A model generated the notes under the pieces. It had not been told where the DNA came from. It worked only from the letters and a program-made list of their open reading frames with translations, and ran no database searches. Made by a program: the position numbers and the translations under genes. Below are positions 722 to 34,808 of a DNA stretch of 64,000 nucleotides, in pieces. Origin of the DNA: an uncultured Gammaproteobacteria bacterium (GTDB lineage: Bacteria > Pseudomonadota > Gammaproteobacteria > UBA4575). The stretch is from contig OX638335.1 in the NCBI GenBank assembly GCA_951812785.1, positions 1,507,653 through 1,571,652 of the forward strand, read 5' to 3'. Numbering within the stretch: position 1 is the stretch's first letter; each line of letters begins with the position of its first letter.

Positions 722-914
722 GTTGAAATAAATCGATTTACAGAATAAATTGAATAACCTTACTGGCTACTATAATAACCACTGCGTGCATTCTTCGCTA
801 CGAAGATCCCTGCTTAAACTATCAATTTGCCATGCACAAATAAAATTAAAGATCTCCACATAGAGACAAGACTCAGTGATGGTTGGAGCCTTAGGCTAGC
901 CATATAATCTAATT

Positions 915-939
915 TGTAATAGTTCAGACCCGATCTGAC
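915..939 (+). repeat. Left inverted end of IS481 copy 1
   Basis: It pairs with 2010-2034 as an imperfect inverted repeat with the core YAGYTCAGACCYGATC. The same end occurs at the right border of copy 2 (reverse strand, outermost base 11375). Confidence 0.75.
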
Positions 940-1034
940 AATTAGCAATCCACAAGGGTTGCAAAAGCGAGAGTTACCCGTTTTGATAAAGGTGTTGAAA
1001 TCTTTAAATCAAACCAAAAAGGCAGGTAACTCTC

Positions 1035-1978
1035 ATGCTTCATACTAACAATCCAATCCTTAAACACAAGGCGGGCTTGCTCAACTTAGCAGAAGAACTG
1101 GGCAACGTATCTAGCGCCTGTCAAGTCATGGGGGTGTCGCGAGACACATTCTATCGTTATCAACAGCGGGTTGAAGAAGGTGGCATTGACAAGAGTCGTA
1201 GAACAGCCGATGTTAAAAACCGTGTGGATGAAGCCACAGCACATGCAGTGGTTACGTCAGCGATTGAACAGCCCGCGGTTGGGCGACATCGAAGCAGCAA
1301 TGAACTGGTGTGTTGATCGCTGGTAGCGGTGTGCGTTGCGTTTGGCTGCGCCATACTCTAGAGCACTTCAAGAAACGACTCAAAGCACTCGAAGAAGAAA
1401 TTGCCAAGGAGGGCATTATCTTAAGCGATGCACAGATCGCCGCCCTTGAGAAACAGGATGACGAGGCCTGTGGTGAGATTGACACGGCACATCCTGGTGA
1501 CTTAGGCCACCTCAAAGGTGTTGGTCGGCTATACCAGCAAACGTTCGTAGACACCTACAGCAAGATCGCCTTTGCGGCACTTTACACGACTAAGACGCCG
1601 ATTACCGCCGCAGACCTACTCTTTGATGAGGTGCTACCGTTTTTTGAAAAGCATGCCTTGCCGATGCTACGTAGTTTAACCGACAGAGGCACAGAATATT
1701 GTGGGCGCGTGGAGCATCATGACGATCGGTGATACCTGCCCATTAACGACATTGATCACCGCAAACCCATGGCATCTCTGAATGAGTTTTATCAAATTAC
1801 CTTCAGGAAAAAACGGTACTCAACCAGGGAGGATTGACCAAAAGATCAAGACAACTGGATAGAAACTGATCACAATGAACGCACTCATCAAGGCAACATG
1901 GGCGGTGGTAGAATACCCATGGACAGGTTAATGGATGGTAAATTGATTTGGGCTAAAAAGAATTTAGCTCACATCTAA
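1035..1978 (+). pseudogene. IS481-family transposase, broken
   Basis: The N-terminus MLHTNNPILKHKAGLLNLAE is the typical start of a common IS481-family transposase with a helix-turn-helix (VSRDTFYRYQQR). The frame breaks near 1310. Pieces of the DDE catalytic domain follow: KGVGRLYQQTFVDTYSKIAF and then LTDRGTEYCGR, with further frame changes after about 1730. The C-terminal piece (NERTHQGNMGGGRIPM) ends at the TAA at 1976-1978. Compared with active relatives, residues between AHPG and KGVGR are missing, and the same gap is present in copy 2. It cannot give a full-length active transposase. Confidence 0.85.
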
Positions 1979-2052: not shown

Positions 2053-2952
2053 TTATTCAAAAATACCGGGGTTTTTAATAGCTGCTTGCTTGGTGATTTC
2101 ATCATCAGACATGTCATGAGCATGTTCAGAATTAATCTCTCCCCACTTTTTAATATAACCTTCTTTACCACCCCATTCTGGTAATAAAGTTTTCTTTAAC
2201 ATTTCTTCGCTAGCTTTTTCAATTTGAACAAGACATGAATAGAATGTTGGTGACATTCCAAAATCAGTTAACTCTTCTGAATTTAATGCATTTGCATTAA
2301 CTCCACCTGGCGTGCTACTTCCTTTATATTGTTTTTGAGTACCACAAACACTAGAAATCAAACCATCGACAATGACTGCATAAGCAAATGTTTCGCCCCT
2401 ATCATTAAATAATCGACATAAATCACCATCACTAATATTTCTGCTGTTTGCATCTTTTGGATTAAGCTCTACTGTCGGTCTAGACATCATTGCATTATGT
2501 CTATCTCCTGACTGAAAAGAATCACCAATAAAATAATGTGTTGCTGTACTTAACACTTGAATTGGGTATTTCTTCTTCTGCTGAAAATCCTCTTGTCCCT
2601 CCACCTCGGGAGTACGTGTTGGCAGTGGGTCTTGCCCCTGTTTTTTTAATTTCTCTGACCATATTTCAATTTTACCACTCTTAGTTCGCCAGCCATTTTT
2701 CAAATAATTTCTTCGTTCTGCATCCACAGATGCACGAGCCCAACCATTTTCGTTATAAACCAAGTCAATATAGTGATTAATTTTATTACATAAATAACCT
2801 TTAGTGACGGGATGCGATGTATCACCTTGAACTCTCACAGCTTTCCCAGTCTTATCATTACGGGTAACAATCATGGAGCATGTGTCTGGACAATCATGTG
2901 GACAATTAGCATGGTGCGTTGAAAAGCCTTCTGCTACTCTTTTATATTCCTT
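2053..2952 (-). pseudogene. Molybdopterin oxidoreductase with large internal deletion
   Basis: The N-terminus of a Mo-bisMGD oxidoreductase is clear: NCPHDCPDTCSMIV followed by VTKGYLCNKINHY gives the four-cysteine iron-sulfur motif. Soon after HYIDLVYN the sequence jumps to the C-terminal region (SGKIEIWSEKL and the pterin-binding end domain). About 400 or more residues of the usual 700 are therefore missing, in frame. Reading upstream in frame from the cysteine motif there are two TAA codons at 2958-2953 and no ATG, GTG or TTG before CPHDC. The first usable ATG (2874) lies inside the motif, so the start appears to be lost as well. The catalytic Mo domain is gone and the product should be inactive. 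It is the last gene of the minus-strand run that begins at 7268, next to IS copy 1. Confidence 0.8.
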
Positions 2953-2999
2953 TTATTAGACACATTCAGCCTTTATATAATAAATTTCTTATATTTTAT

Positions 3000-4697
3000 T
3001 TATTGCACATACATATCGACAATTGTTTTCTCAAATACCTCAGCAGATTGTGCAACTGTTTCAGAAAGTGTTGGATGCGGATGTATAAGCTCCCCGAGTT
3101 CTTGAGCAGTGCACCCATTCTTAATAGCAAGTGCAGCTTCTGAAATAAGGTCTCCTGCATTTGAGCCAACTATGCCTGCACCAATAATTTTTTTACTGAC
3201 TGGATCGTACAATGTTTTTGTAATACCTTCTTTTCTTTCTATGCTTAAAGATCGGCCACTCGCAGCCCAAGGAAATATTCCAAGCTCATATTTAATATTT
3301 AATTTTTTAGCTTGAGATTCAGTAAAACCAACCCATGCTATTTCAGGGTCTGTATATGCAACTGATGGTATTAATGTCCCATCAAAATAACTCTCCATTC
3401 CAGCAATTACTTCTGCTGCCACCCTGCCTTCGTGAGCAGCTTTGTGTGCTAACATAGGTTGACCAACAACATCACCAATAGCAAAAATGTTTTTAACATT
3501 TGTTCTCATTTGACTATTAGTGAGGATAAAGCCTCTCTCATCTACATTAATACCTGCTTTTTCAGCTTCAATAAGACTACCATTTGGTTTTCGCCCTACT
3601 GAAATGAGCACTTTATCAAACAAATCTTTCTTCAGGCCTGTTGGTCCTTCGAATTTGACATACATTCCAGTGATGGTTGACTCAATACTGGTAACCTTGC
3701 TACTTAAAAATATATTTTCATATAATTTTTCAATACGCTTATGTAAGGGTTTCACTAAATCTTTATCTGCACCTGGAATCAATGAGTCTGCAAATTCAAC
3801 AATAGTAACTTTCGAGCCTAACTCATGATAAACCGTTGCCATTTCGAGGCCAATAATCCCACCACCAATTACTAATAAGCGATCAGGTATAGAATCAACT
3901 TCTAAGGCTTCAGTTGAAGTTAATACTCGAGGATCATCATTAGGAAATACAGGAATTTCAACAGGCTCTGAACCTGCAGCAATGATTGCTTGCTCAAATT
4001 CAATATATACTGATCTGCCGCTAGGAAAAGTGACTTTCAGCTTATTTTCCGAGGCAAATGTTCCTACTCCGTTGACTACTTGAACCTTGCGTTTTTTTGC
4101 AAGACTAGCTAAACCCCCAGTTAGTTGCCTAACAACTTTATTCTTCCACCCACGTAATGCCTCAGTATCTATATCCAATGAAGAAAACTTAATACCAAGC
4201 TCGGCCATCTCTTTTGTTTCACTAACAACTTTTGCTGCATGTAACAATGCTTTAGATGGAATGCAGCCAACGTTCAAACACACACCACCTAAAGTACCAT
4301 TCCTTTCTACCATAACAACGTTCTTACCCAGATCTGCCGCTCTAAATGCTGCAGAATAACCACCTAGTCCTGAGCCCAATACTAAAACTTCTGTGGAAAT
4401 ATCGTTATCTAATTCATTCAGTGTAGCTTTGTTCAATGAGTCACTTTCACCACCTTGATCACCAAGTAGCTCCATACTCATTATCAACTGCTCTTCATCA
4501 ACCTCATCATCCACATTCACAAAAATTTCACTAATCCTGCCATTACCTGGAGATCCAAGCTCAACAGCTACTTTGCTGGTTTCAAAGATTACTAAAGTGT
4601 CACCTTGCTTTACGTGATCTCCAACTGAAACTAAAATCTCTTCTACTTTAGCGCCTTCAGCTTCACCTAAATCTGGTACATTGATTTTTTTTAACAT
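3000..4697 (-). CDS. Dihydrolipoamide dehydrogenase with N-terminal lipoyl domain
   Basis: 565 residues. Residues 1-80 form a lipoyl/biotinyl domain with the modified lysine expected at K42 (FETSKVAVEL). After a short linker, residues from about 103 form an E3 flavoprotein: FAD-binding GSGLGG at 108-113, redox disulfide CLNVGC at 140-145, NAD-binding GGGIIG, and a C-terminal HPHPTLSE with the catalytic histidine. E3 proteins with a lipoyl domain are known from some pyruvate dehydrogenase complexes, but no E1 or E2 gene is nearby. The context is acetyl-CoA synthetase, OsmC and sulfone oxidation. Its partner complex is unknown; a link to lipoate-based sulfur oxidation is possible but not shown. 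Confidence 0.9.
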   Translation of the reverse strand: MLKKINVPDLGEAEGAKVEEILVSVGDHVKQGDTLVIFETSKVAVELGSPGNGRISEIFVNVDDEVDEEQLIMSMELLGDQGGESDSLNKATLNELDNDISTEVLVLGSGLGGYSAAFRAADLGKNVVMVERNGTLGGVCLNVGCIPSKALLHAAKVVSETKEMAELGIKFSSLDIDTEALRGWKNKVVRQLTGGLASLAKKRKVQVVNGVGTFASENKLKVTFPSGRSVYIEFEQAIIAAGSEPVEIPVFPNDDPRVLTSTEALEVDSIPDRLLVIGGGIIGLEMATVYHELGSKVTIVEFADSLIPGADKDLVKPLHKRIEKLYENIFLSSKVTSIESTITGMYVKFEGPTGLKKDLFDKVLISVGRKPNGSLIEAEKAGINVDERGFILTNSQMRTNVKNIFAIGDVVGQPMLAHKAAHEGRVAAEVIAGMESYFDGTLIPSVAYTDPEIAWVGFTESQAKKLNIKYELGIFPWAASGRSLSIERKEGITKTLYDPVSKKIIGAGIVGSNAGDLISEAALAIKNGCTAQELGELIHPHPTLSETVAQSAEVFEKTIVDMYVQ

Positions 4698-4751
4698 GGG
4701 GAAATTTTTAAATGTGAAATATAAGCAATAATGTAAAATCTATTCATGATT

Positions 4752-6656
4752 TTAGCCGCCATACTGGGTGCGGCTATTTACCAATAATTCAACAATAGAT
4801 GGATTCACTAAAGTGGATGTATCTCCAACATCATCAAATTCATTATTAGAAATTTTACGCAGAATTCTGCGCATGACTTTACCACTGCGAGTTTTAGGTA
4901 GCTCAGGTGTCCAATGAAGTACATCAGGTTTAGCTATCCCACTGATTTCAGTTTTAACCAAATTCAATAATTCATTTATCATTTTTTCATCAGGTTGATA
5001 TTTATTAATCAAAGCTACATACGCATATATTCCCTGCCCTTTAACTGGATGGGGATAACCGACCACTGCCGCTTCGGCAACGGCTTCATGTTTAATTAAA
5101 GCAGCTTCAACCTCAGTTGCTCCTATCAAATGACCAGCAACATTTAAGGTATCATCTGCTCTACCGGTAATTCTTAATGTCCTTTTTTCATTATAACTTG
5201 CCCTATCACCAGGAATATAAAATCCACCATTTTTACTATTGGTAAAATAAGTATCTTGGAATCGTTTCTCATCGTTATATATGGTAAGCATCTGACCAGG
5301 CCATGGTTCTTTAATAACTAAATTACCGGTATCTTCATTTGTTAATACTTCACTGTCATCAACCAAATCTGGAACAATTCCAAACATGGGCTTTACGTTA
5401 TCACCACATTTTTTCGTAATTGTTTGCAGCATCTGTGAAAGCATGATGCCTCCAGTTTCTGTTTGCCACCATGTATCGAGTATTGGGCATTTCTGATTTC
5501 CAACTTTGCTAAAATACCAATCCCAGGTTTCTGCATCAATCGGCTCACCAACTGATCCAAGTAATCTTAGGCTCTCTCGTGTAGAATCGTTTAAATAGCT
5601 ATCTCCCATTCCTACTAGCGTCCTTAAAATTGTCGGAGCCGTGTATAGAGTATTTACTTTATAACGATCTATCACTTCCCAATAGCGGCTTGCAGTAGGA
5701 TACGTTGGCACACCCTCGTAAAGTACAATAGTGGCACCCATAGATAACGGACCATATAGAACGTAAGAGTGTCCAGTAATCCACGCCAAATCAGCCGTAC
5801 ACCAAAACACTTCATCTTCCTTATAGTCAAACACGTGCTTAAACGTAAGACTACAATGCAACAAATATCCAGCCGAAGAATGAAGTATTCCTTTAGGTTT
5901 ACCTGTCGACCCGGAAGTATAAAGAATAAATAATGGATCATTTGAGTCTACAGCTTCGGGAGCACACATATCAGATGCAGGCTTCATCACTTCGTGATAC
6001 CAAATATCTCGGCCAGTGTGCATATTGGCATCAGATTCAGTATGTTTAACTACAACTACTTTTTCTATCGATGGACACTCTTGTAATGCATCATCCATAA
6101 TGCCTTTGATAGGTATATTTTTACCACCACGTTTTCCTTCGTTGGCGCTAACAACAACCTTACATTGCGTATCATTGATTCTGTCTTTCAAAGCATTTGA
6201 TGAAAACCCACCAAATATTACTGAATGAATAGCTCCTAATCGAGCACATGCCAGCATTGCAACAGCAGTTTCGATTATATTAGGCATGTAAATACAGACT
6301 CTATCGCCTTTATTTACATTTAAAGACTTAAGCACATTTGAGAACTTACAAACTTCAATGTAGAGCTCGTTGTAAGTCATTTGTTTACGATCATTGGGAT
6401 CATCCCCCTCCCAAATAATCGCTGTTTTATCACCTTTTTTTATTAAGTGGCGATCTAAACAGTTACTTGAAACGTTTAACTTTGCACCTACAAACCATTT
6501 AGCATGAGTTTTATTGTCATCCTTCTTTAATACATCAGTCCAAGGACGCATCCACTTGATGAAATGACCTGCTTGCTCTGACCAGAAATTTATAGGGTCT
6601 TGAATAGACCACCTATATAAAGAATGATATTTTTCATTAATTGAACTAGATTTCAT
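4752..6656 (-). CDS. acsA: Acetyl-CoA synthetase (AMP-forming)
   Basis: 634 residues, close to the usual 650 for acetate-CoA ligase. It activates acetate to acetyl-CoA through acetyl-AMP. Visible signatures are the ACS N-terminal region (SIQDPINFWSEQAGHFIKW), the AMP-binding P-loop YTSGSTGKPKG near residue 250, WWQTETGGIML, and the C-terminal TRSGKVMRRILRK with the lysine that is acetylated in regulated ACS enzymes. Another short-chain acid cannot be excluded, but the acetate-type tryptophan motif WWQTETGG favours acetate. It sits 54 bases downstream of the osmC stop and 54 bases upstream of the lipoyl-E3 start, on the same strand, and is probably co-transcribed with both. Confidence 0.9.
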   Translation of the reverse strand: MKSSSINEKYHSLYRWSIQDPINFWSEQAGHFIKWMRPWTDVLKKDDNKTHAKWFVGAKLNVSSNCLDRHLIKKGDKTAIIWEGDDPNDRKQMTYNELYIEVCKFSNVLKSLNVNKGDRVCIYMPNIIETAVAMLACARLGAIHSVIFGGFSSNALKDRINDTQCKVVVSANEGKRGGKNIPIKGIMDDALQECPSIEKVVVVKHTESDANMHTGRDIWYHEVMKPASDMCAPEAVDSNDPLFILYTSGSTGKPKGILHSSAGYLLHCSLTFKHVFDYKEDEVFWCTADLAWITGHSYVLYGPLSMGATIVLYEGVPTYPTASRYWEVIDRYKVNTLYTAPTILRTLVGMGDSYLNDSTRESLRLLGSVGEPIDAETWDWYFSKVGNQKCPILDTWWQTETGGIMLSQMLQTITKKCGDNVKPMFGIVPDLVDDSEVLTNEDTGNLVIKEPWPGQMLTIYNDEKRFQDTYFTNSKNGGFYIPGDRASYNEKRTLRITGRADDTLNVAGHLIGATEVEAALIKHEAVAEAAVVGYPHPVKGQGIYAYVALINKYQPDEKMINELLNLVKTEISGIAKPDVLHWTPELPKTRSGKVMRRILRKISNNEFDDVGDTSTLVNPSIVELLVNSRTQYGG

Positions 6657-6710
6657 TGTTATTTATTAAAATTCGTAATACATAAAATATTACTGTTAGA
6701 TTAGTGTTAA

Positions 6711-7268
6711 CTATGATGATGGTTCATCTGTGCTTTTATTTATTTTAGTAACACCATTAATTTTCATATTTCTAGTCAACATATCCATCACAGGACACTG
6801 AGCTTCAACATCATGAATAAGCTTATTTAAAGTTGCCTCGTCAGCGCTACTTGACAAATTAGTCTCATAATTAATTGATGAGAAGCCTGGAAATATATTT
6901 TCTTCCTCATTGAGACCTAACAAACCGCGAACATTTAATTCAGCCTTCAAAGTAACTTCACATTCATCTAGAGGTATATTTCTCACAGAAGCTAGTGCTG
7001 AATACATTATTTGTTGACATGATCCTAATGCAACTAACACCAACTCAACGGGACTAGCACTTAAGTCAGTCCCGCCGAATGATGCTGGCTCATCTACAAG
7101 CAATTTATGCGCCCTGCGGATCTGATTCTTACATAATGTTCCACCTTCCCATTTGGTATTCACATAGTATTTAAATTTACCGAAATCTGGATCACTTTGT
7201 GATTTATCAATCATGTTATTAATTGATACTTTAACGGACTCTAAGCTTTTAATGTTTTCTTCACTCAT
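6711..7268 (-). CDS. OsmC/Ohr-family protein
   Basis: 185 residues with the OsmC-fold cysteines in their usual setting: one in LVALGSCQQIMYSALA near residue 83 and one in VEAQCPVMDML near 160. Family members reduce organic hydroperoxides or handle reactive sulfur compounds. The second motif (CPVMDML) is the standard OsmC type, and the protein has a long N-terminal extension of about 40 residues. It is first in the minus-strand run osmC-acsA-lipoyl E3-Mo enzyme and directly follows a strong sigma-54-like promoter at 7402-7418. The substrate is not evident. The neighbourhood suggests detoxification during organosulfur oxidation (inference). Confidence 0.82.
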   Translation of the reverse strand: MSEENIKSLESVKVSINNMIDKSQSDPDFGKFKYYVNTKWEGGTLCKNQIRRAHKLLVDEPASFGGTDLSASPVELVLVALGSCQQIMYSALASVRNIPLDECEVTLKAELNVRGLLGLNEEENIFPGFSSINYETNLSSSADEATLNKLIHDVEAQCPVMDMLTRNMKINGVTKINKSTDEPSS

Positions 7269-7401
7269 ATTTATTAAATTAAATTTATTACAATTAAAAT
7301 AATTTTAAGGTGCACAACTGAACGTGTGACAATCAATTAGTTACTCTGATATATGATGAATAACTAAATTAGTTGTTTTTTATGCTATTTACACGGGTAT
7401 C

Positions 7402-7418
7402 TGCAATAAATAAGCCAA
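7402..7418 (-). promoter_or_regulatory. Sigma-54-type promoter upstream of osmC
   Basis: The minus-strand sequence TTGGCTTATTTATTGCA has GG and GC separated by exactly 10 bases. It matches the -24/-12 consensus TGGC-N8-TTGCA very well. The predicted transcription start is near 7391, giving a leader of about 120 bases before the ATG at 7268. Confidence 0.65.
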
Positions 7419-7461
7419 GGCTACAAACACATGAAATGTATAGCTATATGGCTTAAGGATG

Positions 7462-7479
7462 AATTTCAAGCTTGAAATT
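7462..7479. promoter_or_regulatory. Perfect 18-bp palindrome, candidate activator site
   Basis: AATTTCAAGCTTGAAATT is its own reverse complement. Its centre is about 80 bases upstream of the predicted start of the sigma-54 promoter, a normal place for an enhancer-binding protein. The TTTCAA/TTGAAA half-sites are the same as in the palindrome at 10522-10540 in front of sfnG. Confidence 0.55.
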
Positions 7480-7546
7480 TTGTTTCTATATGACCCAGCT
7501 TTAAGGATGATAAAACAGGTTTGTTTCAAAATCACCTTTAAAATAA

Positions 7547-8111
7547 TTAATCAGGGCAAATTTCATAAGTATCATGTGTACGAAACAGATATTTACCATT
7601 TGAATAGTCTTCATAATACCAATCAAGCACTTTATTCATTATTTCATATGACAATGAATCCCAAGAGACATCGCATTCTTCAAAAAATTTTGCATCCAAG
7701 GACTCTTCGCCTATTTCAGTGTAGTCTGAAGCTACACTCCCTCTATACACAAAATATACCTGATTGATTTTTGGACAATTCACCATGGTATACAGGTGCA
7801 ACTTTTCGACTATTACACCAGTTTCTTCTCTTGTTTCCCGTTTAGCAGCTCCTTCGAGCTGTTTCATTTTTCTCCATATAGCCACCAAGCAAAGTCCAGT
7901 ATCCTAACCTAGGCTTTATGGCACGCTTACAGAGCAAGACCTTTCCATTGAAATCTATTAAGCTCAGTACAATTATTTTAGGGTTTTCATAATAAACTGC
8001 ATCACAATTTTTACAAATATGCACGACGGCTCTATCATTCTGATTAATATCTTCATCAATTTTTGAACCGCATCTACTACAGTAATTAATCTCGACGCTA
8101 AAATTATCCAT
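7547..8111 (-). pseudogene. NUDIX hydrolase with zinc-ribbon, frameshifted
   Basis: The first frame (from 8111) has a zinc ribbon (NYCSRCGSK ... HICKNCDAVYYENP) and leads into the NUDIX box at GYWTLLGGYMEKNET. A one-base shift near 7855-7862 moves the reading to the second frame, which continues LEGAAKRETREETGV and ends at 7547. Joined, the box GG-x5-E-x7-RETREETGV is complete and the protein would be about 187 residues, normal for ADP-ribose/NADH-type NUDIX proteins with a zinc ribbon. As read, the product is truncated inside the catalytic box. Either a real lesion or a single-base sequencing error explains it. Confidence 0.8.
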
Positions 8112-8182
8112 AATATTTATTATAAATTAATTAATATTTTTATGCTTATGAGTCACCAAAAATTTATCAACTTTTCCTGCAA

Positions 8183-8482
8183 TTAGTCATCATATAAGTT
8201 CGTATAGGTATCCATACCAACACCACCATGCTTTTGTGGGAATGCAGCAGTAATATTCATTACATTTTTATCTGGCATGCTACACCATAATTCTTCTGCA
8301 TCATCTCGATTCAATACGTTAATATTTTCAGAATTATCATCTTGTAAGAAATAATTTGAATTCAATGCTCTAAATAAATATTTCTCATTACTCTTATCAT
8401 ATGCAAGTAGTGTTGAAGTATCAGTACGATACGTCTCTTTATCAACAACTTGTTGCAGTACTTTATAACTTATATTAATCAT
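8183..8482 (-). CDS. Small protein of unknown function in the sfn operon
   Basis: 99 residues, not recognised. It is acidic and polar, with no signal peptide or membrane segment and one cysteine (in ELWCSMPDK). The start at 8482 (MINISYKVLQ) is preceded by an AGGAGATAC ribosome site. It lies 48 bases after the FMN reductase stop and 71 bases before the NUDIX gene, on the same strand, so it is likely part of the sfnG transcript. It could be an accessory or regulatory protein of organosulfur use, but nothing in the sequence shows a function. Confidence 0.6.
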   Translation of the reverse strand: MINISYKVLQQVVDKETYRTDTSTLLAYDKSNEKYLFRALNSNYFLQDDNSENINVLNRDDAEELWCSMPDKNVMNITAAFPQKHGGVGMDTYTNLYDD

Positions 8483-8530
8483 TTGTATCTCCTAGTAACG
8501 ATAGTAGCAAAGTAATAAGCACCTAAAACA

Positions 8531-9130
8531 CTAACCACTCGTTAATGATTGCCTTTTAATGCTTGGCCCTAAAGCACCAATAATACTTAGCCTATCAATT
8601 GGCAGGATTTTATTGAAATTGACTACTGACTCACCGAGTTGTTGTAATTTCACCATCAGTTCTTCACTGCCAATTTCACCTTGTGAATAATGCGCATTAT
8701 TCGCATATACAACACCAGGCAAAACAATAGCTAAAAAGAAACCCAACAATGGTTTTAATTCATGTTCTAAAGCAAGATAATGATGATCGCTACCACCAGT
8801 CGCAATCAAACCTACTAGTTTCCCTATCATTGCTTCATTAGGAATAAGATCAAATACATTTTTAAGAAGGCCGGTATATGTACCACGATACATAGGAGTA
8901 CCAATGATATACGCATCCGCATCAATGATCTTATCAATTAAAATTCTTGCATCGCCTTCATATTTTGAAGGATCTCGAGCATCGCAAAATTGAACATTAA
9001 ACTGACTAATATTTAATGTTTCAATTTCGATATTAGAATCATGTTTACATGCAAAACCTAAAGCAGTATTAACAGCCAATAATGTTTTAGAACTTTGCGT
9101 GGGTCCGCCTGATATTCCAAGTAGCTTCAT
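8531..9130 (-). CDS. NAD(P)H-dependent FMN reductase
   Basis: About 199 residues from the ATG at 9130 (MKLLGISGGPTQSSKT); a TTG five codons upstream is a less likely start. The flavodoxin-like fold shows at GISGG near the N-terminus, GTPMYRGTYTGLLKNVFDLIP (flavin binding) and KLVGLIATGGSDHH. Such reductases (the MsuE/SfnF/SsuE type) supply reduced FMN to two-component monooxygenases that cleave C-S bonds. It lies directly downstream of the SfnG-type monooxygenase on the same strand, so the two are very likely partners. Confidence 0.88.
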   Translation of the reverse strand: MKLLGISGGPTQSSKTLLAVNTALGFACKHDSNIEIETLNISQFNVQFCDARDPSKYEGDARILIDKIIDADAYIIGTPMYRGTYTGLLKNVFDLIPNEAMIGKLVGLIATGGSDHHYLALEHELKPLLGFFLAIVLPGVVYANNAHYSQGEIGSEELMVKLQQLGESVVNFNKILPIDRLSIIGALGPSIKRQSLTSG

Positions 9131-9220
9131 AGTGTCTGTACCCAAAGTTATGATTAATTTAAAAATAAGAAGAGATACTATTCAAAATACAATATTGTCA
9201 TCTCTCACATTCAACCTGAA

Positions 9221-10393
9221 TTAGGCTGATTTTCTCTTACCAATAGATCTACCTTTACGTAAATCTTCTTCTTTTTCTCTAACAAGTGGAATTACTTGCT
9301 CTCCAAATGCCTTTAGATCTGTGTTGTAGTGTAAGAAGCCACATAATATGACTTTTATGCCTAGCATTTTCAGCTCAATAATACGATCAGCAACAGTCTC
9401 AGGTGTGCCAATCAAGCCAGTTTTGAAACCATCGTTATACTGAACCAAATCTTCAAAAGTAGAATTAACCCACATCCCTTCACCTTCTTTTGACTCTCTT
9501 CCTGCATGTTTAACCGCTTCACCAAAGCCTTTTACTGCTTCAACATCTGCATTGGTAATGACATCTCTTAAAGTTTCTGTTGCTTCTTCAACAGTATCAC
9601 GCACTATACAAAATCCATTTACACCAAATTTCAATTCACTAGGATCACGACCAGAATCAATTGCTGATGAAATTGATTCATCCATAATTTCCTTAAAACC
9701 TTTATTCGTATTCCCATTCATAAATAAGCAGTCAGTCACTCTTCCAGCCACTCTCCTAGCATCTTTTGAATTACCACCTTGGAACACAACAGGTTTATGC
9801 AATGGCTTTGGTAACATCGGTGCTCCATTTATCTGATAAAAGTCACCATAAAAAGTGAATTCTTCTTCAGTCCACATTCCCTTCATAATTCGAATGAATT
9901 CTTCTGATCGTCGATAACGCTCAGTATGCTCAAGCCATGGTAAACCATAGCCTGTGAACTCAGCCTTAAACCATCCACTGACCACATTGATCGATGTTCT
10001 GCCTTGACTGCACACATCAAGAGATGCTTGCATTTTTGCAACAATCGCTGGATGCCATAGCCCAGGATGAACCGCAGTAATAACCTCAAGCTTTTTTGTA
10101 TGCTGGAGAATGACATTAGCAATAGTAAATGCTTCATGCTGATGGTCAGCACCATAACTAGCAAACCATCTGGTTTGTGCTAATGCTGTAACAAATCCAA
10201 CTCTCTCTGCATCTTGAGCATATTTAATATTCGCTTCAGGAGTCCAGTCCGTATCCATAGGTAATGTGGTAATAACCAGCCCACCGGATATATTCGGAAT
10301 CCAGTATGCAAATTCAACCTGATCTGAGGTTAACCACGCCGATGGCTTTAATGGATTCTTTGAGTCTAGCAATAATTTTGGATATGTTGCCAT
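9221..10393 (-). CDS. sfnG: FMNH2-dependent dimethylsulfone monooxygenase
   Basis: 390 residues, bacterial-luciferase-like TIM barrel. Sequence blocks such as EFAYWIPNISGGLVITT, HEAFTIANVILQHT, VSGWFKAEFTGYGLPWLEH, FYQINGAPMLPKP and VFQGGNSKDARR are typical of SfnG. This enzyme oxidises dimethylsulfone to methanesulfinate and formaldehyde using FMNH2 and oxygen, in the cytoplasm. The FMN reductase follows 90 bases downstream. A sigma-54-like promoter and a palindrome lie upstream, which agrees with the known sigma-54 control of sfn genes in Pseudomonas. Alkanesulfonate monooxygenase (SsuD/MsuD) is a related alternative, but the N-terminal blocks fit SfnG better. Confidence 0.87.
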   Translation of the reverse strand: MATYPKLLLDSKNPLKPSAWLTSDQVEFAYWIPNISGGLVITTLPMDTDWTPEANIKYAQDAERVGFVTALAQTRWFASYGADHQHEAFTIANVILQHTKKLEVITAVHPGLWHPAIVAKMQASLDVCSQGRTSINVVSGWFKAEFTGYGLPWLEHTERYRRSEEFIRIMKGMWTEEEFTFYGDFYQINGAPMLPKPLHKPVVFQGGNSKDARRVAGRVTDCLFMNGNTNKGFKEIMDESISSAIDSGRDPSELKFGVNGFCIVRDTVEEATETLRDVITNADVEAVKGFGEAVKHAGRESKEGEGMWVNSTFEDLVQYNDGFKTGLIGTPETVADRIIELKMLGIKVILCGFLHYNTDLKAFGEQVIPLVREKEEDLRKGRSIGKRKSA

Positions 10394-10433
10394 GTTATGA
10401 AGACCTTATAATCGAATATAGTTACTTAGTCTC

Positions 10434-10449
10434 AGCATAATATATGCCA
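10434..10449 (-). promoter_or_regulatory. Sigma-54-type promoter upstream of sfnG
   Basis: The minus-strand sequence TGGCATATATTATGCT has a perfect -24 block (TGGCA) and a near-perfect -12 block (ATGCT), with 10 bases between GG and GC. Transcription would start near 10423, leaving about 30 bases before the sfnG ATG with AAGG as ribosome site. Confidence 0.6.
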
Positions 10450-10521
10450 TAAAACCACTACCTATAAATCATTGATTAATTTGAAATTAATACTAAATTA
10501 GCAAAGATTTATTCATGCTTT

Positions 10522-10540
10522 GAGTTTCAATTTGAAACTC
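10522..10540. promoter_or_regulatory. 19-bp perfect palindrome, candidate activator site
   Basis: GAGTTTCAATTTGAAACTC has two 9-base arms around one central base. Its centre is about 108 bases upstream of the predicted sfnG start, a usual distance for a sigma-54 activator. The TTTCAA/TTGAAA core is shared with 7462-7479. Confidence 0.6.
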
Positions 10541-10568
10541 GCTTTAAATGGGAGCGTTTCAGAAAGAC

Positions 10569-10605
10569 AAAAAAAAGCTGGCACATAGAACCCTGTGCGC
10601 CAGCT
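10569..10605 (-). terminator. Rho-independent terminator, probably of lysS
   Basis: On the minus strand the stem AGCTGGCGCACAG pairs with CTATGTGCCAGCT (two wobble pairs) around a GGTT loop and is followed by eight T. It faces away from lysS, whose stop is at 11410. IS481 copy 2 now lies between them. Confidence 0.8.
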
Positions 10606-10613
10606 AACATTAC

Positions 10614-11255
10614 TCGGCAATGCATGCTTTTCAAAAAACGGTAGCACCTCATCAAAGAGTAGGTCTGCGGCGGTAATCGGCGTCTTAGTCGTGTAGAGTG
10701 CCGCAAAGGCGATCTTGCTGTAGGTGTCTACGAACGTTTGCGGGTATAGCCGACCAACACCTTTGAGGTGGCCTAAGTCACCAGGATGTGCCGTGTCAAT
10801 CTCACCACAGGCCTCGTCATCCTGTTTCTCAAGGGCGGCGATCTGTGCATCGCTTAAGATAATGCCATCCTTGGCAATTTCTTCTTCGAGTGCTTTGAGT
10901 CATTTCTTGAAGTGCTCTCAATGATGGCGCAGCCAAACGCAACGCACACCGCTACCAGCGATAAACACACCAGTTCATTGCTGCTTCGATGTTGCCCAAC
11001 CGCGGGCTGTTCAATCGCTGACGTCACCACTGCATGTGCTGTGGGTTCATCCACACGGTTTTTAACATCGGCTGTTCTACGACTCTTGTCAATCCGTGAG
11101 TCAATGCCACCTTCTTCAACCCGCTCTTGATAACGATAGAATGTGTCTCGCGACACCCCCATGACTTGACAGGCGCTAGATACGTTGCCCAGTTCTTCTG
11201 CTAAGTTGAGCAAGCACGCCTTGTGTTTAAGGATTGGATTGTTAGTATGAAGCAT
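10614..11255 (-). pseudogene. IS481-family transposase fragment
   Basis: It starts MLHTNNPILKHKACLLNLAE and keeps a few codons (SRID) that copy 1 lacks before DKSRRT. The frame breaks around 10900-10950, and the DDE-domain part (DDEACGEIDTAHPGDLGHLKG, then VDTYSKIAF) is in another frame. The gene is cut off at 10614, so the last catalytic residues are absent. No active transposase is possible. Confidence 0.83.
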
Positions 11256-11375
11256 GAGAGTTACCTGCCTTTTTGGTTTGATTTAAAGATTTCAACACCT
11301 TTATCAAAACGGGTAACTCTCGCTTTTGCAACCCTTGTGGATTGCTAATTGTCAGATCGGGTCTGAACTATTACA
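10614..11375 (-). mobile_element. IS481-family insertion sequence, copy 2 (truncated)
   Basis: It is nearly identical to 915-1675 in inverted orientation. The outer end at 11375 reads TGTAATAGTTCAGACC inward. Homology stops abruptly at 10614, after TTGCCGA on the minus strand, just before the terminator hairpin. The distal third and the second inverted end are missing. The internal gap after AHPG is the same as in copy 1. Confidence 0.85.
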
Positions 11376-11409
11376 ATTTAGTCAAACTGCAATTTGAGAA
11401 CCACTTAAG

Positions 11410-16130: not shown

Positions 16131-17576
16131 ATGTCTGAACACTTACTTTTTCTCACTGGCAAACTTGCTGAAAAAAGTCTGCATAAGGTGCTCGAAAATA
16201 TGCAGCCCACCAAGTTTAGTTACGAAATTCATCAAATTGGCGTCAGCGTGGCCGCCTTGATGACGACAGATTTAATCGCTAGGCGACTAAAAGATGTGTC
16301 GAAATTCGATAAAGTAATGCTGCCAGGTCGTTGCCGTGGTGATATTGACCAGCTCGCCAACCAACTAGGCAAACCAGTTGAACGCGGCCCAGAAGAACTC
16401 AAAGACTTACCCCAATATTTCGGCCATGCCGCTAAAAAATCTGACTTAAGCAAATACTCAACAGACATTTTTGCTGAAATTGTTGATGCCCCCAATATGA
16501 CTGTCGAGCAAATCATCGCTCGTGCTGAGCAGTACAGAAATGATGGCGCCAATGTGATTGATTTAGGCTGTTTACCTAATACGCCATTTGGCCACTTAGC
16601 TGAATCGGTTCAAGCGCTTAAGTCTGCTGATTTTAAAGTCAGTGTCGATTCTTTACTCGCTGAAGATCTCGTTACCGGAGGTAAAGCAGGCGCAGATTTT
16701 TTATTAAGTTTGCAATATAACTCTCTATGGATACTAGAGAAAGTTGATTCAACACCCATCATTATTGGTGGCCCTCCAAGCAATATGCGCTCACTATATA
16801 AAACCATTAATACACTTCTAAAAGAAGGTGTGCGTTTCATTGCTGACCCTATTTTAGATCCAATAAATTTCAATTTTACTGAATCAATCGTTCGTTACCG
16901 CAACTTACGCAAGCATTATCCCGATATAGAAATCATGATGGGGGTTGGCAACTTAACCGAGCTAACACATGTTGATAGCGCAGGAACCAATGCATTGTTG
17001 ATGGGTATAATCTCGGAGCTTGATATTGGTCACATACTAGCCACTGAAGTCAGCGAACATTGTCGTAAGTCAGTCAAAGAAGCGGATCTCGCCAGACGAA
17101 TAATGCACGCTTCTAAAAAAGGCCATATCCCACCAAAAGGTTATCACAATGGATTAATGGCTCTGCATGAACGCAAGCCCTTCCCTTATGACGTAGGCGA
17201 GATCAAAGAGTTTGCTGAAAATGTACGCGATCCAAATTTTCGAATTCAGGTATGTGATGAAGGCGTCTTCGTATACAATCGCGATGGCATTTGGAACGCT
17301 ACTGATCCGTTTGATCTTTACCCACGCTTAAACGTTGCTGAAGATGGTGCCCATGCGTTTTATTTGGGATGCGAACTCGCACGAGCACAAATTGCTTGGC
17401 AATTAGGTAAACGTTACGACCAAGACGAAGAACTTGAATGGGGTATACATGTTGAAAAAAGCGAGCAAGATCTAAACGCTTTTAAAGATGAAGGCAGCAC
17501 TATGCAATCGCGCAAAGATCGTAAAAATAATCGCAAATCTACCAAATACAAAAAGAACGACGCAAGACGCTGTTAA
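16131..17576 (+). CDS. Dihydropteroate synthase-like protein, H4MPT-linked
   Basis: 481 residues. A TIM-barrel pterin-binding domain resembling dihydropteroate synthase occupies roughly residues 125-300 (DGANVIDLGCLPNTPF, FKVSVDSLLAEDL, GVRFIADPILDPINF, IEIMMGVGNLTELT). The flanking regions are specific to methanogens and to H4MPT-using methylotrophs. The most likely job is a step in methanopterin synthesis or pterin handling. It lacks the length and sequence of the normal FolP. It is divergent from recJ and heads a plus-strand operon with DUF447 and mfnB genes. The C-terminus is a lysine/arginine-rich tail. Confidence 0.82.
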   Translation: MSEHLLFLTGKLAEKSLHKVLENMQPTKFSYEIHQIGVSVAALMTTDLIARRLKDVSKFDKVMLPGRCRGDIDQLANQLGKPVERGPEELKDLPQYFGHAAKKSDLSKYSTDIFAEIVDAPNMTVEQIIARAEQYRNDGANVIDLGCLPNTPFGHLAESVQALKSADFKVSVDSLLAEDLVTGGKAGADFLLSLQYNSLWILEKVDSTPIIIGGPPSNMRSLYKTINTLLKEGVRFIADPILDPINFNFTESIVRYRNLRKHYPDIEIMMGVGNLTELTHVDSAGTNALLMGIISELDIGHILATEVSEHCRKSVKEADLARRIMHASKKGHIPPKGYHNGLMALHERKPFPYDVGEIKEFAENVRDPNFRIQVCDEGVFVYNRDGIWNATDPFDLYPRLNVAEDGAHAFYLGCELARAQIAWQLGKRYDQDEELEWGIHVEKSEQDLNAFKDEGSTMQSRKDRKNNRKSTKYKKNDARRC

Positions 17577-17589
17577 CAACTGATTAATT

Positions 17590-18165
17590 ATGCCTTTTAT
17601 CAGAGAAAGTATTATTACCACATTACATGAAGATGGCAGTGCCCACATTACTCCGATGGGTGTGCACGAAACTGATAGAGGCTTAATGCTCGCACCATTC
17701 AAACCTTCCTCTACATTAAACAATCTTATGCGCGAAGGGACAGCAACAATTAATTATCCTGATGATGTGCGCATATTTGCTGGTTGCTTAACAGGAAGAC
17801 GCGATTGGCCAACTGTCCCTACTGATATCATTGCAGGGATAAGATTGCATGATTGTTTAGCCCATACAGAAATCAAAATACACACACATGAAGATCACGA
17901 GCAGCGGCCAGAGTTTTATTGTGATGTTGTTCACGAACAAATGCATAAACCTTATCATGGCCATAACCGCGCTCAGTTTGCTGTCATAGAATTAGCTATA
18001 CTAGCCAGTCGATTACATATGCTAACTACAGAAAAGATAGATAACGAAATTGAATATTTGCGTATCGGCTTAGATAAAACAGCTGGCGAACGCGAATTAG
18101 AAGCATGGAATTGGCTAATGGAAAAAGTCACCCAACATAGAAACAAACAGACCGAGAAAGCATAA
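17590..18165 (+). CDS. DUF447-family flavin-binding-like protein
   Basis: 191 residues of the DUF447 family, found in methanogens and H4MPT-dependent methylotrophs and related in fold to FMN-binding split barrels. Visible family blocks: HITPMGVHETDRGLMLAPFKPSSTLNNL near the N-terminus and HEQMHKPYHGHNRAQFAVIELAILASRLHML in the second half. The reaction is unknown; a role in C1 cofactor metabolism is inferred from conserved neighbourhood. It lies 13 bases after the DHPS-like gene, and its stop codon overlaps the mfnB start by one base (TAATG), indicating translational coupling. Confidence 0.8.
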   Translation: MPFIRESIITTLHEDGSAHITPMGVHETDRGLMLAPFKPSSTLNNLMREGTATINYPDDVRIFAGCLTGRRDWPTVPTDIIAGIRLHDCLAHTEIKIHTHEDHEQRPEFYCDVVHEQMHKPYHGHNRAQFAVIELAILASRLHMLTTEKIDNEIEYLRIGLDKTAGERELEAWNWLMEKVTQHRNKQTEKA

Positions 18166-18869
18166 TGACTGGATTTTTAGCAAGTGTTGATAACTTAGAA
18201 GATGCCATCACTGTTAGCAAACATGGCGCAGATATTATTGACTTAAAAGATCCTAGTCAGGGCGCACTCGGCGGATTAACTATTAATGCAATTCATAACA
18301 TTGTTGACCACCTATGGGAAAAGTCGATAGTCAGCGCTACTGTAGGTGATCTTGAAGCCGACGTCTCATTAATTTTAGAACAAATAGGCAAAGTAGCCGA
18401 TACAGGTGTCGACTATGTCAAAGTCGGCATGTTCACCCAAGAACACACAGACAAATGTTTACCCACCTTCGAATATCATGCACGACGTGGCGTGAAAATT
18501 ATCGCAGTACTATTTGCTGATATAGATTTTGATATTCAAGAAACAGTTAAAATATGCAAAAAAGCACGCTTAACTGGTGTAATGATGGATACTGCAGGAA
18601 AAAATTCCGGCAGTCTGCTTCTACATAGAGAGCTCAACGAGCTTTCTAACTTTATTCAAACAGCTAAAAATAATAGCCTAGTCACTGGGCTTGCAGGCTC
18701 ATTACGCGAAAAAGATATTGAAACTTTATTGTCCATCAATCCTGACTACATCGGCTTTCGCACAGCTCTTTGCAAAGATTTAAAACGAACTGAAAGAATC
18801 AGCACAAAATTTGTTAGCCGCATTCGCGACCTGATACCCAACACATTAAAAGCCTCTCATCTGGGATAA
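18165..18869 (+). CDS. mfnB: (5-formylfuran-3-yl)methyl phosphate synthase
   Basis: 234 residues, former DUF556. MfnB condenses two glyceraldehyde-3-phosphate molecules into the furan ring of methanofuran. Family features are the N-terminal LASVDNLEDAITVSKHGADIIDLKDPSQGALGG with the Schiff-base lysine in DLKDP, a second lysine in VDYVKVGM, and TGLAGSLREKDIETLL near the C-terminus. Together with mfnD, mfnE and mfnF elsewhere in the window it argues that the organism makes its own methylofuran for the Fhc complex. Last gene of the three-gene plus-strand operon. Confidence 0.9.
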   Translation: MTGFLASVDNLEDAITVSKHGADIIDLKDPSQGALGGLTINAIHNIVDHLWEKSIVSATVGDLEADVSLILEQIGKVADTGVDYVKVGMFTQEHTDKCLPTFEYHARRGVKIIAVLFADIDFDIQETVKICKKARLTGVMMDTAGKNSGSLLLHRELNELSNFIQTAKNNSLVTGLAGSLREKDIETLLSINPDYIGFRTALCKDLKRTERISTKFVSRIRDLIPNTLKASHLG

Positions 18870-34280: not shown

Positions 34281-34808
34281 TTAGAATCCTTTGAACGGAT
34301 GCTCTGCAGAATCTTTTTGTGCAACAACCGTAGATGCTTTTGGCTCATCCTTGATTGCGCGCTCAATAGACTCTTTAACTGCCTTGTAGTTATTCTCGTA
34401 GATAGCTTCGTCGCTCTTAGCTTCCCAGTGAATAAACACACCAACACAGATGAACATGTCGTCTGCTTCGTCAGCCGGAATAGTGCCGTCTTCAACACTA
34501 TCAGCAACTGCTTTAGCAACAGCAGCCTGAGCTGGACCAAACATTTGTACTGCTTGTGTAGCGCCTTTGATGGTCACTTTATTGAACATCATAGTATTTG
34601 GCTTACAAGGAAGGTTAGGTGCAACAACAGCTAATAAAGTTGAAAAACCATCTTTGTTGTTTACTAAACCGTTACAGAATGCTGTCTCAACTGCTGAACC
34701 ACGTGGGCCCATTAGCAAATCGATGTGTGCAATTTCTGCCATATTTCCTGCTGGATCCGCGTCATTTACTAATGACTCACCAACCATTACTCTATTAACT
34801 ACTGCCAT
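34281..34808 (-). CDS. fae: Formaldehyde-activating enzyme
   Basis: 175 residues. Fae condenses formaldehyde with tetrahydromethanopterin to methylene-H4MPT, the entry of the pathway and usually one of the most abundant proteins in methylotrophs. Family blocks: [28 protein letters not shown] with the catalytic His at residue 28, [40 protein letters not shown] and the C-terminal HPFKGF. The loop before the His is a few residues longer than in Methylorubrum Fae. A good ribosome site (TTAGGAGAAATTAA) precedes the ATG, and its own terminator follows. Confidence 0.97.

Follow-up and report, generated by a model that had tools for sequence, protein, structure and literature searches.

Pseudomonas putida DS1 reportedly has an sfnFG operon with SfnR as its regulator, work that is attributed to Endoh et al. 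in 2005 (Mol Microbiol 55:897) and to Habe et al. in 2007. Here, we examine a 64,000-bp stretch (the window) of the single-contig genome of an uncultured gammaproteobacterium, in which sfnG and osmC, both on the minus strand, are each preceded by a sigma-54 (RpoN) promoter and a palindrome. Control of sfnG by sigma-54 via SfnR is already known in Pseudomonas (cited in PMC13352529 and PMC8234197). Like P. putida DS1, our locus pairs sfnG with a flavin reductase, predicted here to be controlled by RpoN together with an enhancer-binding protein. In contrast to the receiver-less SfnR, the likely activator of the window's regulon is an orphan with receiver, AAA+ and helix-turn-helix (HTH) domains, and the regulon context differs from that of sfnFG by including DmoA, a binding protein, ribBA, OsmC, Acs and a dihydrolipoyl dehydrogenase (E3), with a signal that is probably different too. 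We consider it very likely that a single sigma-54 regulon, for dimethyl sulfide (DMS) and dimethyl sulfone (DMSO2), includes both window promoters, that it is driven by a receiver-type activator of the NtrC family, and that its gene cluster was split by IS481 elements. The predicted regulon is a variation on known sigma-54 control, applied to DMS/DMSO2 and with a different activator class. The genome's dmoA, whose product resembles the described DmoA (PDB 6ak1), stands under the same operator and promoter type as sfnG. In the literature searched, we found neither dmoA under sfnG-type regulation (and little on its regulation of any kind), nor this class of activator and its operator, nor dmoA, sfnG and ribBA joined in one regulon.

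Promoters and operators

The two -24/-12 elements and two perfect palindromes described in an earlier note on this DNA are present where it placed them (Table 1). Both promoters have the GG-to-GC spacing of sigma-54 elements (12 bp, in a TGGCAY-N5-TTGCW context), the -12 element of sfnG being ATGCT, as in the relatives G003 and G006 and in Glaciimonas, and ATGCA in G014. The osmC element is nearly invariant across G000, G002, G003 and L008 and reads TGGCCTATAAATTGCA in G014 and G006, and the sfnG-type element is found at the same place, in near-identical form (TGGCATAAATCATGCT, TGGCATAATTGATGCW), ahead of the ribBA-tsN-sfnG operon in G003, G014 and G006. Judged by sequence, both promoters are real and conserved in relatives. 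The -24/-12 consensus alone, with at most one mismatch, is common in the window (16 occurrences against 13.4 expected; not significant); the evidence lies in its combination with an upstream site and in conservation. The rpoN gene that such promoters demand is present (PF04552, 234.5 bits, at genome 1,877,548).

From 28 promoters of this genome and its relatives, lying upstream of dmoA, the flavin reductase gene FlvRed, the binding-protein gene, the sfnG operon and osmC, we derived a conserved operator: GTNTC-N5-GAAAC, an inverted repeat of 15 bp that precedes the -24 element by 67-110 bp. The spacings are grouped at 67-69, 77-79, 87-90 and 107-110 bp, on one helical face (Rayleigh p ~1e-7 at a 10-10.5 bp period, orthologues counted separately). 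The perfect sfnG copy scores 20.3-20.8 in a model trained without the window's genome, and it is accompanied by a second, weaker site; paired sites also stand upstream in G003 and G014. On the osmC side, alignment shows the operator to be a block conserved in G002, G003 and L008, and the GAAACA of a more distal half-type site is kept in four genomes. When a model was trained on binding-protein (SBP), FlvRed (flvR) and dmoA promoters only, sfnG came first in the window (32.2) and osmC second (28.7), the third best score being 19.0 and the top score in 300 simulated Markov windows 27.8. A strict pattern combining operator and promoter has six matches genome-wide, five of them in the two half-clusters described below, against none for the reversed control; background matches in some genomes of the family (in G009, five against five in the control) make this pattern informative only in genera g1 and g3.

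The earlier note had taken the palindromes themselves, TTTCAA-N1-2-TTGAAA, as a shared operator with flexible spacing. In favor of this idea, TTTCAA-N0-3-TTGAAA occurs twice in the window, compared to 0.14 times by expectation (a count of two was reached in 0 of 100 shuffles), and the same two promoter-linked sites, perfect dyads on the osmC side (AATTTCAAGCTTGAAATT) and the sfnG side (GAGTTTCAATTTGAAACTC), are the only occurrences in the whole 2,158,385-bp genome. The same confinement means that no wider regulon is defined by the exact palindrome, and a search at other sfnG loci found neither of the window's palindromes. Moreover, the two dyads differ in spacer (N1 and N2) and are thus not copies of a single operator. 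Of the two, the sfnG dyad alone agrees with the regulon-wide repeat; the osmC dyad scores far below zero in the operator model, its sequence is not conserved in G002, G003 and L008 whereas the adjoining GTC-N5-GAAAC-type site is, and its N6 spacer appears in the conserved operator of no other regulon promoter. We therefore regard the palindromes as unlikely to be the shared operator and prefer GTNTC-N5-GAAAC in that role.

The osmC dyad keeps its position in G002 and G003 with divergent sequence. Dyads at a matching offset upstream of osmC in the window, in L077 (G003) and in L076 (G002) differ in sequence and retain their symmetry (AATTTCAAG/CTTGAAATT, ATCTTTAGA/TCTAAAAAT, AATTCAA[A]TTGAATT); they may represent a site for a second protein or quasipalindrome correction. 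Likewise, the operator ahead of ribBA-tsN-sfnG lies within extended dyads in G014 (L078 ~8471-8507) and G006 (L081 ~8423-8460), with arms of 17 bp and about 14 bp, the outer arms of which differ between the genomes yet are self-complementary. On the other side of these extended dyads there is a divergent -24/-12-like site.

The candidate activator and the divided cluster

The window holds no activator gene, as the earlier note had observed. The orthologue of the activator found in relatives lies 0.92 Mb from sfnG, in a half-cluster (genome about 589.5-595.6 kb) with dmoA, a flavin reductase and a periplasmic binding protein, whose genes have the same type of operator and promoter as those in the window. 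The best PDB match of dmoA is 6ak1, a dimethyl-sulfide monooxygenase (827 bits, near full-length). In G002, G003, G014, G015, G009 and G006 the activator is found next to sfnG, a few kb upstream. The proposed layout of an enhancer-binding protein working with RpoN is supported, as is a regulon for methyl-sulfur compounds. The C-terminal HTH of the receiver-type activator contains a GRKALW helix invariant in all ten orthologues, and the sigma-54 contact motif, as befits an NtrC-type domain, is GAYTGA in genus g1 and G072 and GAFTGA in g3, g6 and Glaciimonas. The order of domains is that of NtrC/AtoC-type enhancer-binding proteins, and the best full-length NCBIfam matches, which fall well short of the respective cut-offs, are AtoC (377.7 bits) and NtrC (377 bits). 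Unlike those proteins, the candidate has no adjacent kinase in the window's family, an operator of its own and, in g1, an altered receiver, in which arginine replaces the conserved lysine in all four sequences and the acidic pocket is changed (D to N or S). We found no partner histidine kinase beside the activator in the window's genome, and the kinase of Glaciimonas used as a query across the family gave weak generic matches only. Given the altered receiver and the absence of a kinase nearby, the activator may respond through cross-talk, concentration control or direct sensing. In G002 the system is duplicated, with a second activator copy (L082 7509-8915) by a separate dmoA locus.

More distant orthologues do have a kinase. 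In the betaproteobacterium Glaciimonas immobilis, the activator (47% identity) and a histidine kinase form a pair 2.6 kb from sfnG, with a small cyclic-nucleotide-type regulator downstream, and sfnG is preceded by a perfect GTTTC-N5-GAAAC and by TGGCACGAACTATGCT (TGGCAC-N5-ATGCT). The orthologue in G072 (49%) is also paired with a kinase (L137 7835-12002) and adjoins a composite operator/sigma-54 site. This second pair is likewise found with a small cyclic-nucleotide-type regulator, and near it are genes for a formate dehydrogenase, a formate--tetrahydrofolate ligase-like, a GcvT-like and a TauE-like protein, the first two named by eye.

Three NtrC-like proteins are encoded in the genome, all with a receiver domain: NtrC, adjoining NtrB; an NtrX-like protein, adjoined by a kinase-type ATPase match in a 760-aa frame; and the orphan candidate. 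Activation by NtrC under nitrogen limitation might be considered, since NtrC uses sigma-54 and is present with its NtrB, but we judge it improbable: GTNTC-N5-GAAAC differs from the enteric NtrC consensus as generally known, the cluster in relatives has its own activator, and genomes with sfnG and without that activator are also without the composite site. Also improbable is an activator of the SfnR type, to which the earlier note had pointed. In P. putida, sfnG and the FMN reductase are RpoN/SfnR dependent (Endoh et al. 2005, as cited in PMC13352529 and PMC8234197), and SfnR lacks a receiver and is made under sulfate starvation via CysB. We reject this activator on genome content, as a search of the 2.16-Mb single-contig genome and the cluster found no receiver-less protein of this kind and the sfnG-linked activator of relatives carries a receiver.

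The receiver-type activator has a place in the family's gene order, which is FlvRed (-), activator, periplasmic binding protein, further genes, sfnG, FMN reductase, a 99-aa protein, in some cases NUDIX, OsmC, in some cases Acs, and E3 (read across two contigs in G006, with the break inside sfnG). In the window, an IS481-family remnant occupies the broken upstream end (copies at window 909-1664 and L075 5750-6521 match it at 96-98% identity), and an IS481 end lies 44 bp past the binding-protein gene (L075 13618-13671). Such pieces at both broken ends point to one ancestral cluster that was split, and the simplest reading would be an IS481-mediated rearrangement that separated the binding-protein gene from the sfnG operator. 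Further, the copies at 909-1664 and 10614-11381 are inverted, ~96% identical and flank the whole sfn island in the manner of a composite transposon; more IS481 pieces are found elsewhere in the genome, at 587.7-588.8 kb and, past the binding-protein gene, at 595.6 kb.

Beyond the window, the regulon takes in dmoA, the flavin reductase and the binding protein, and in relatives ribBA. In G014 the sfnG-type promoter drives ribBA, followed by a 61-aa EF-Ts-like protein and then sfnG, which ties flavin supply to the two-component flavin monooxygenases. Only a fragment of ribBA is left in G003 and the gene is gone from the window's genome, a loss that puts the promoter 40 bp ahead of sfnG.

Proposed mechanism

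Activator binding, induction and substrate are predicted as follows. The receiver-type activator would occupy GTNTC-N5-GAAAC sites that share one helical face some 65-120 bp upstream, contact RpoN polymerase by looping to the -24/-12 elements and open five promoters: those of dmoA, the flavin reductase beside the activator gene, the periplasmic binding protein, sfnG and osmC-acs-lpd. Using reduced flavin, the encoded proteins would demethylate DMS and DMSO2, yielding formaldehyde, and the formaldehyde from DmoA and SfnG would be channelled via the host's formaldehyde-activating enzyme. The ancestor presumably had a single cluster, whose sfnG operon included ribBA and which, if Glaciimonas is a guide, also encoded a partner histidine kinase; IS481 elements would then have divided it into two parts 0.92 Mb apart. 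More tentatively, and with rather more doubt than belief, we suggest that the activator, having lost its kinase, became an orphan with direct sensing of the pathway, or with sensing via its receiver, now degenerate, or via the orphan binding protein regulated along with it, and acts as a one-component sigma-54 DMS/DMSO2 switch, and that the position-fixed, sequence-shifting dyads beside the operators are a second functional element.

Several observations weigh against a single regulon of this kind. The activities of SfnG and DmoA are assigned by homology. Many of the compared promoters are orthologous and so not independent, and the Rayleigh p overstates their independence. The window's genome has a weak operator at its FlvRed promoter, G014 and G006 retain the -24/-12 elements of osmC without a clear operator, and the Glaciimonas operators are farther off (about 155-234 bp) than those in the family. 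In G012, G017 and G018 of the family, sfnG is present without either the activator or the composite site, so this gene is also run independently of the system.

Genes of the sfn island and their significance

Table 1. Features of the sfn island (genes at 2053-10393; window coordinates unless marked as genome)
Feature	Position	Strand	Remarks
Sigma-54 -24/-12 promoter of osmC-acs-lpd	7402..7418	-	TTGGCTTATTTATTGCA
Sigma-54 -24/-12 promoter of sfnG	10434..10449	-	TGGCATATATTATGCT
sfnG operator GTTTC-AAATT-GAAAC	10524..10538	.	perfect copy, core of the 10522-10540 palindrome; starts 89 bp upstream of -24
Second, weaker sfnG operator TTGTCTTTCTGAAAC	10556..10570	-	121 bp upstream of -24; score 13.5
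Conserved osmC operator GGGTC-ATATA-GAAAC (GGGTCATATAGAAAC)	7482..7496	-	79 bp upstream of -24; score 16.7
Distal half-type osmC operator AGGTGATTTTGAAAC	7523..7537	-	120 bp upstream of -24
osmC palindrome, not a regulon operator	7462..7479	.	N6 spacer; operator-model score -7.9; adjoins 7482-7496
Candidate activator, 468 aa, receiver/AAA+/HTH	genome 592,288-593,691		PF00072 and PF00158
sfnG, dimethylsulfone monooxygenase	9221..10393	-	TIGR04021, 546.8 bits against a cut-off of 382.95
NADPH-dependent FMN reductase (MsuE/SsuE-like)	8531..9145	-	PF03358; TIGR03566, 130 bits, below cut-off
Conserved 99-aa protein without family match	8183..8482	-	adjoins sfnG in all relatives examined
NUDIX hydrolase gene, frameshifted	7547..8111	-	intact in G003
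OsmC-like protein	6711..7268	-	PF02566
Acetate--CoA ligase family	4752..6656	-	TIGR02188, 890 bits, above cut-off
Dihydrolipoyl dehydrogenase with N-terminal lipoyl domain	3000..4697	-	TIGR01350, 493.7 bits, above cut-off; PF00364
Molybdopterin oxidoreductase pseudogene	2053..2874	-	42 near-N-terminal residues fused to the C-terminal third
Intrinsic-terminator-like hairpin and T-run	10568..10605	-	just upstream of the sfnG operators
IS481-family remnant	10614..11381	-	transposase family; next to the sfnG operators on their upstream side, where the cluster is broken

The earlier note had extended the regulon to osmC, an acetyl-CoA synthetase, a lipoyl-E3 and a molybdenum (Mo) enzyme. The osmC-acs-E3 operon remains part of it, and the Mo enzyme drops out as a pseudogene: compared with the intact 767-aa gene of G003 it lacks 464 internal codons and matches L077 14628-14753 and 16146-16841 only. 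The NUDIX gene matches the G003 protein in two reading frames, one covering residues 1-88 and the other residues 81-187. With this frameshift and this deletion, neither gene is likely to function in the window's genome. A terminator-like hairpin is found at the same place in G003 as in the window.

The genome has two copies of the gene for formaldehyde-activating enzyme (Fae), one of them in the window, where this gene and probable tetrahydromethanopterin/methanofuran pathway genes (the latter named by eye) lie at 34293-34784 and 16131-18869, respectively. The host looks like a C1 oxidiser.

Bacterial breakdown of DMS and DMSO2 matters for the sulfur cycle, and our analysis provides a concrete, testable operator, GTNTC-N5-GAAAC, a named candidate activator, and a list of predicted targets that joins dmoA, sfnG and flavin supply. 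The locus would further exemplify a regulon whose operators kept it wired together once an insertion sequence had split its gene cluster.

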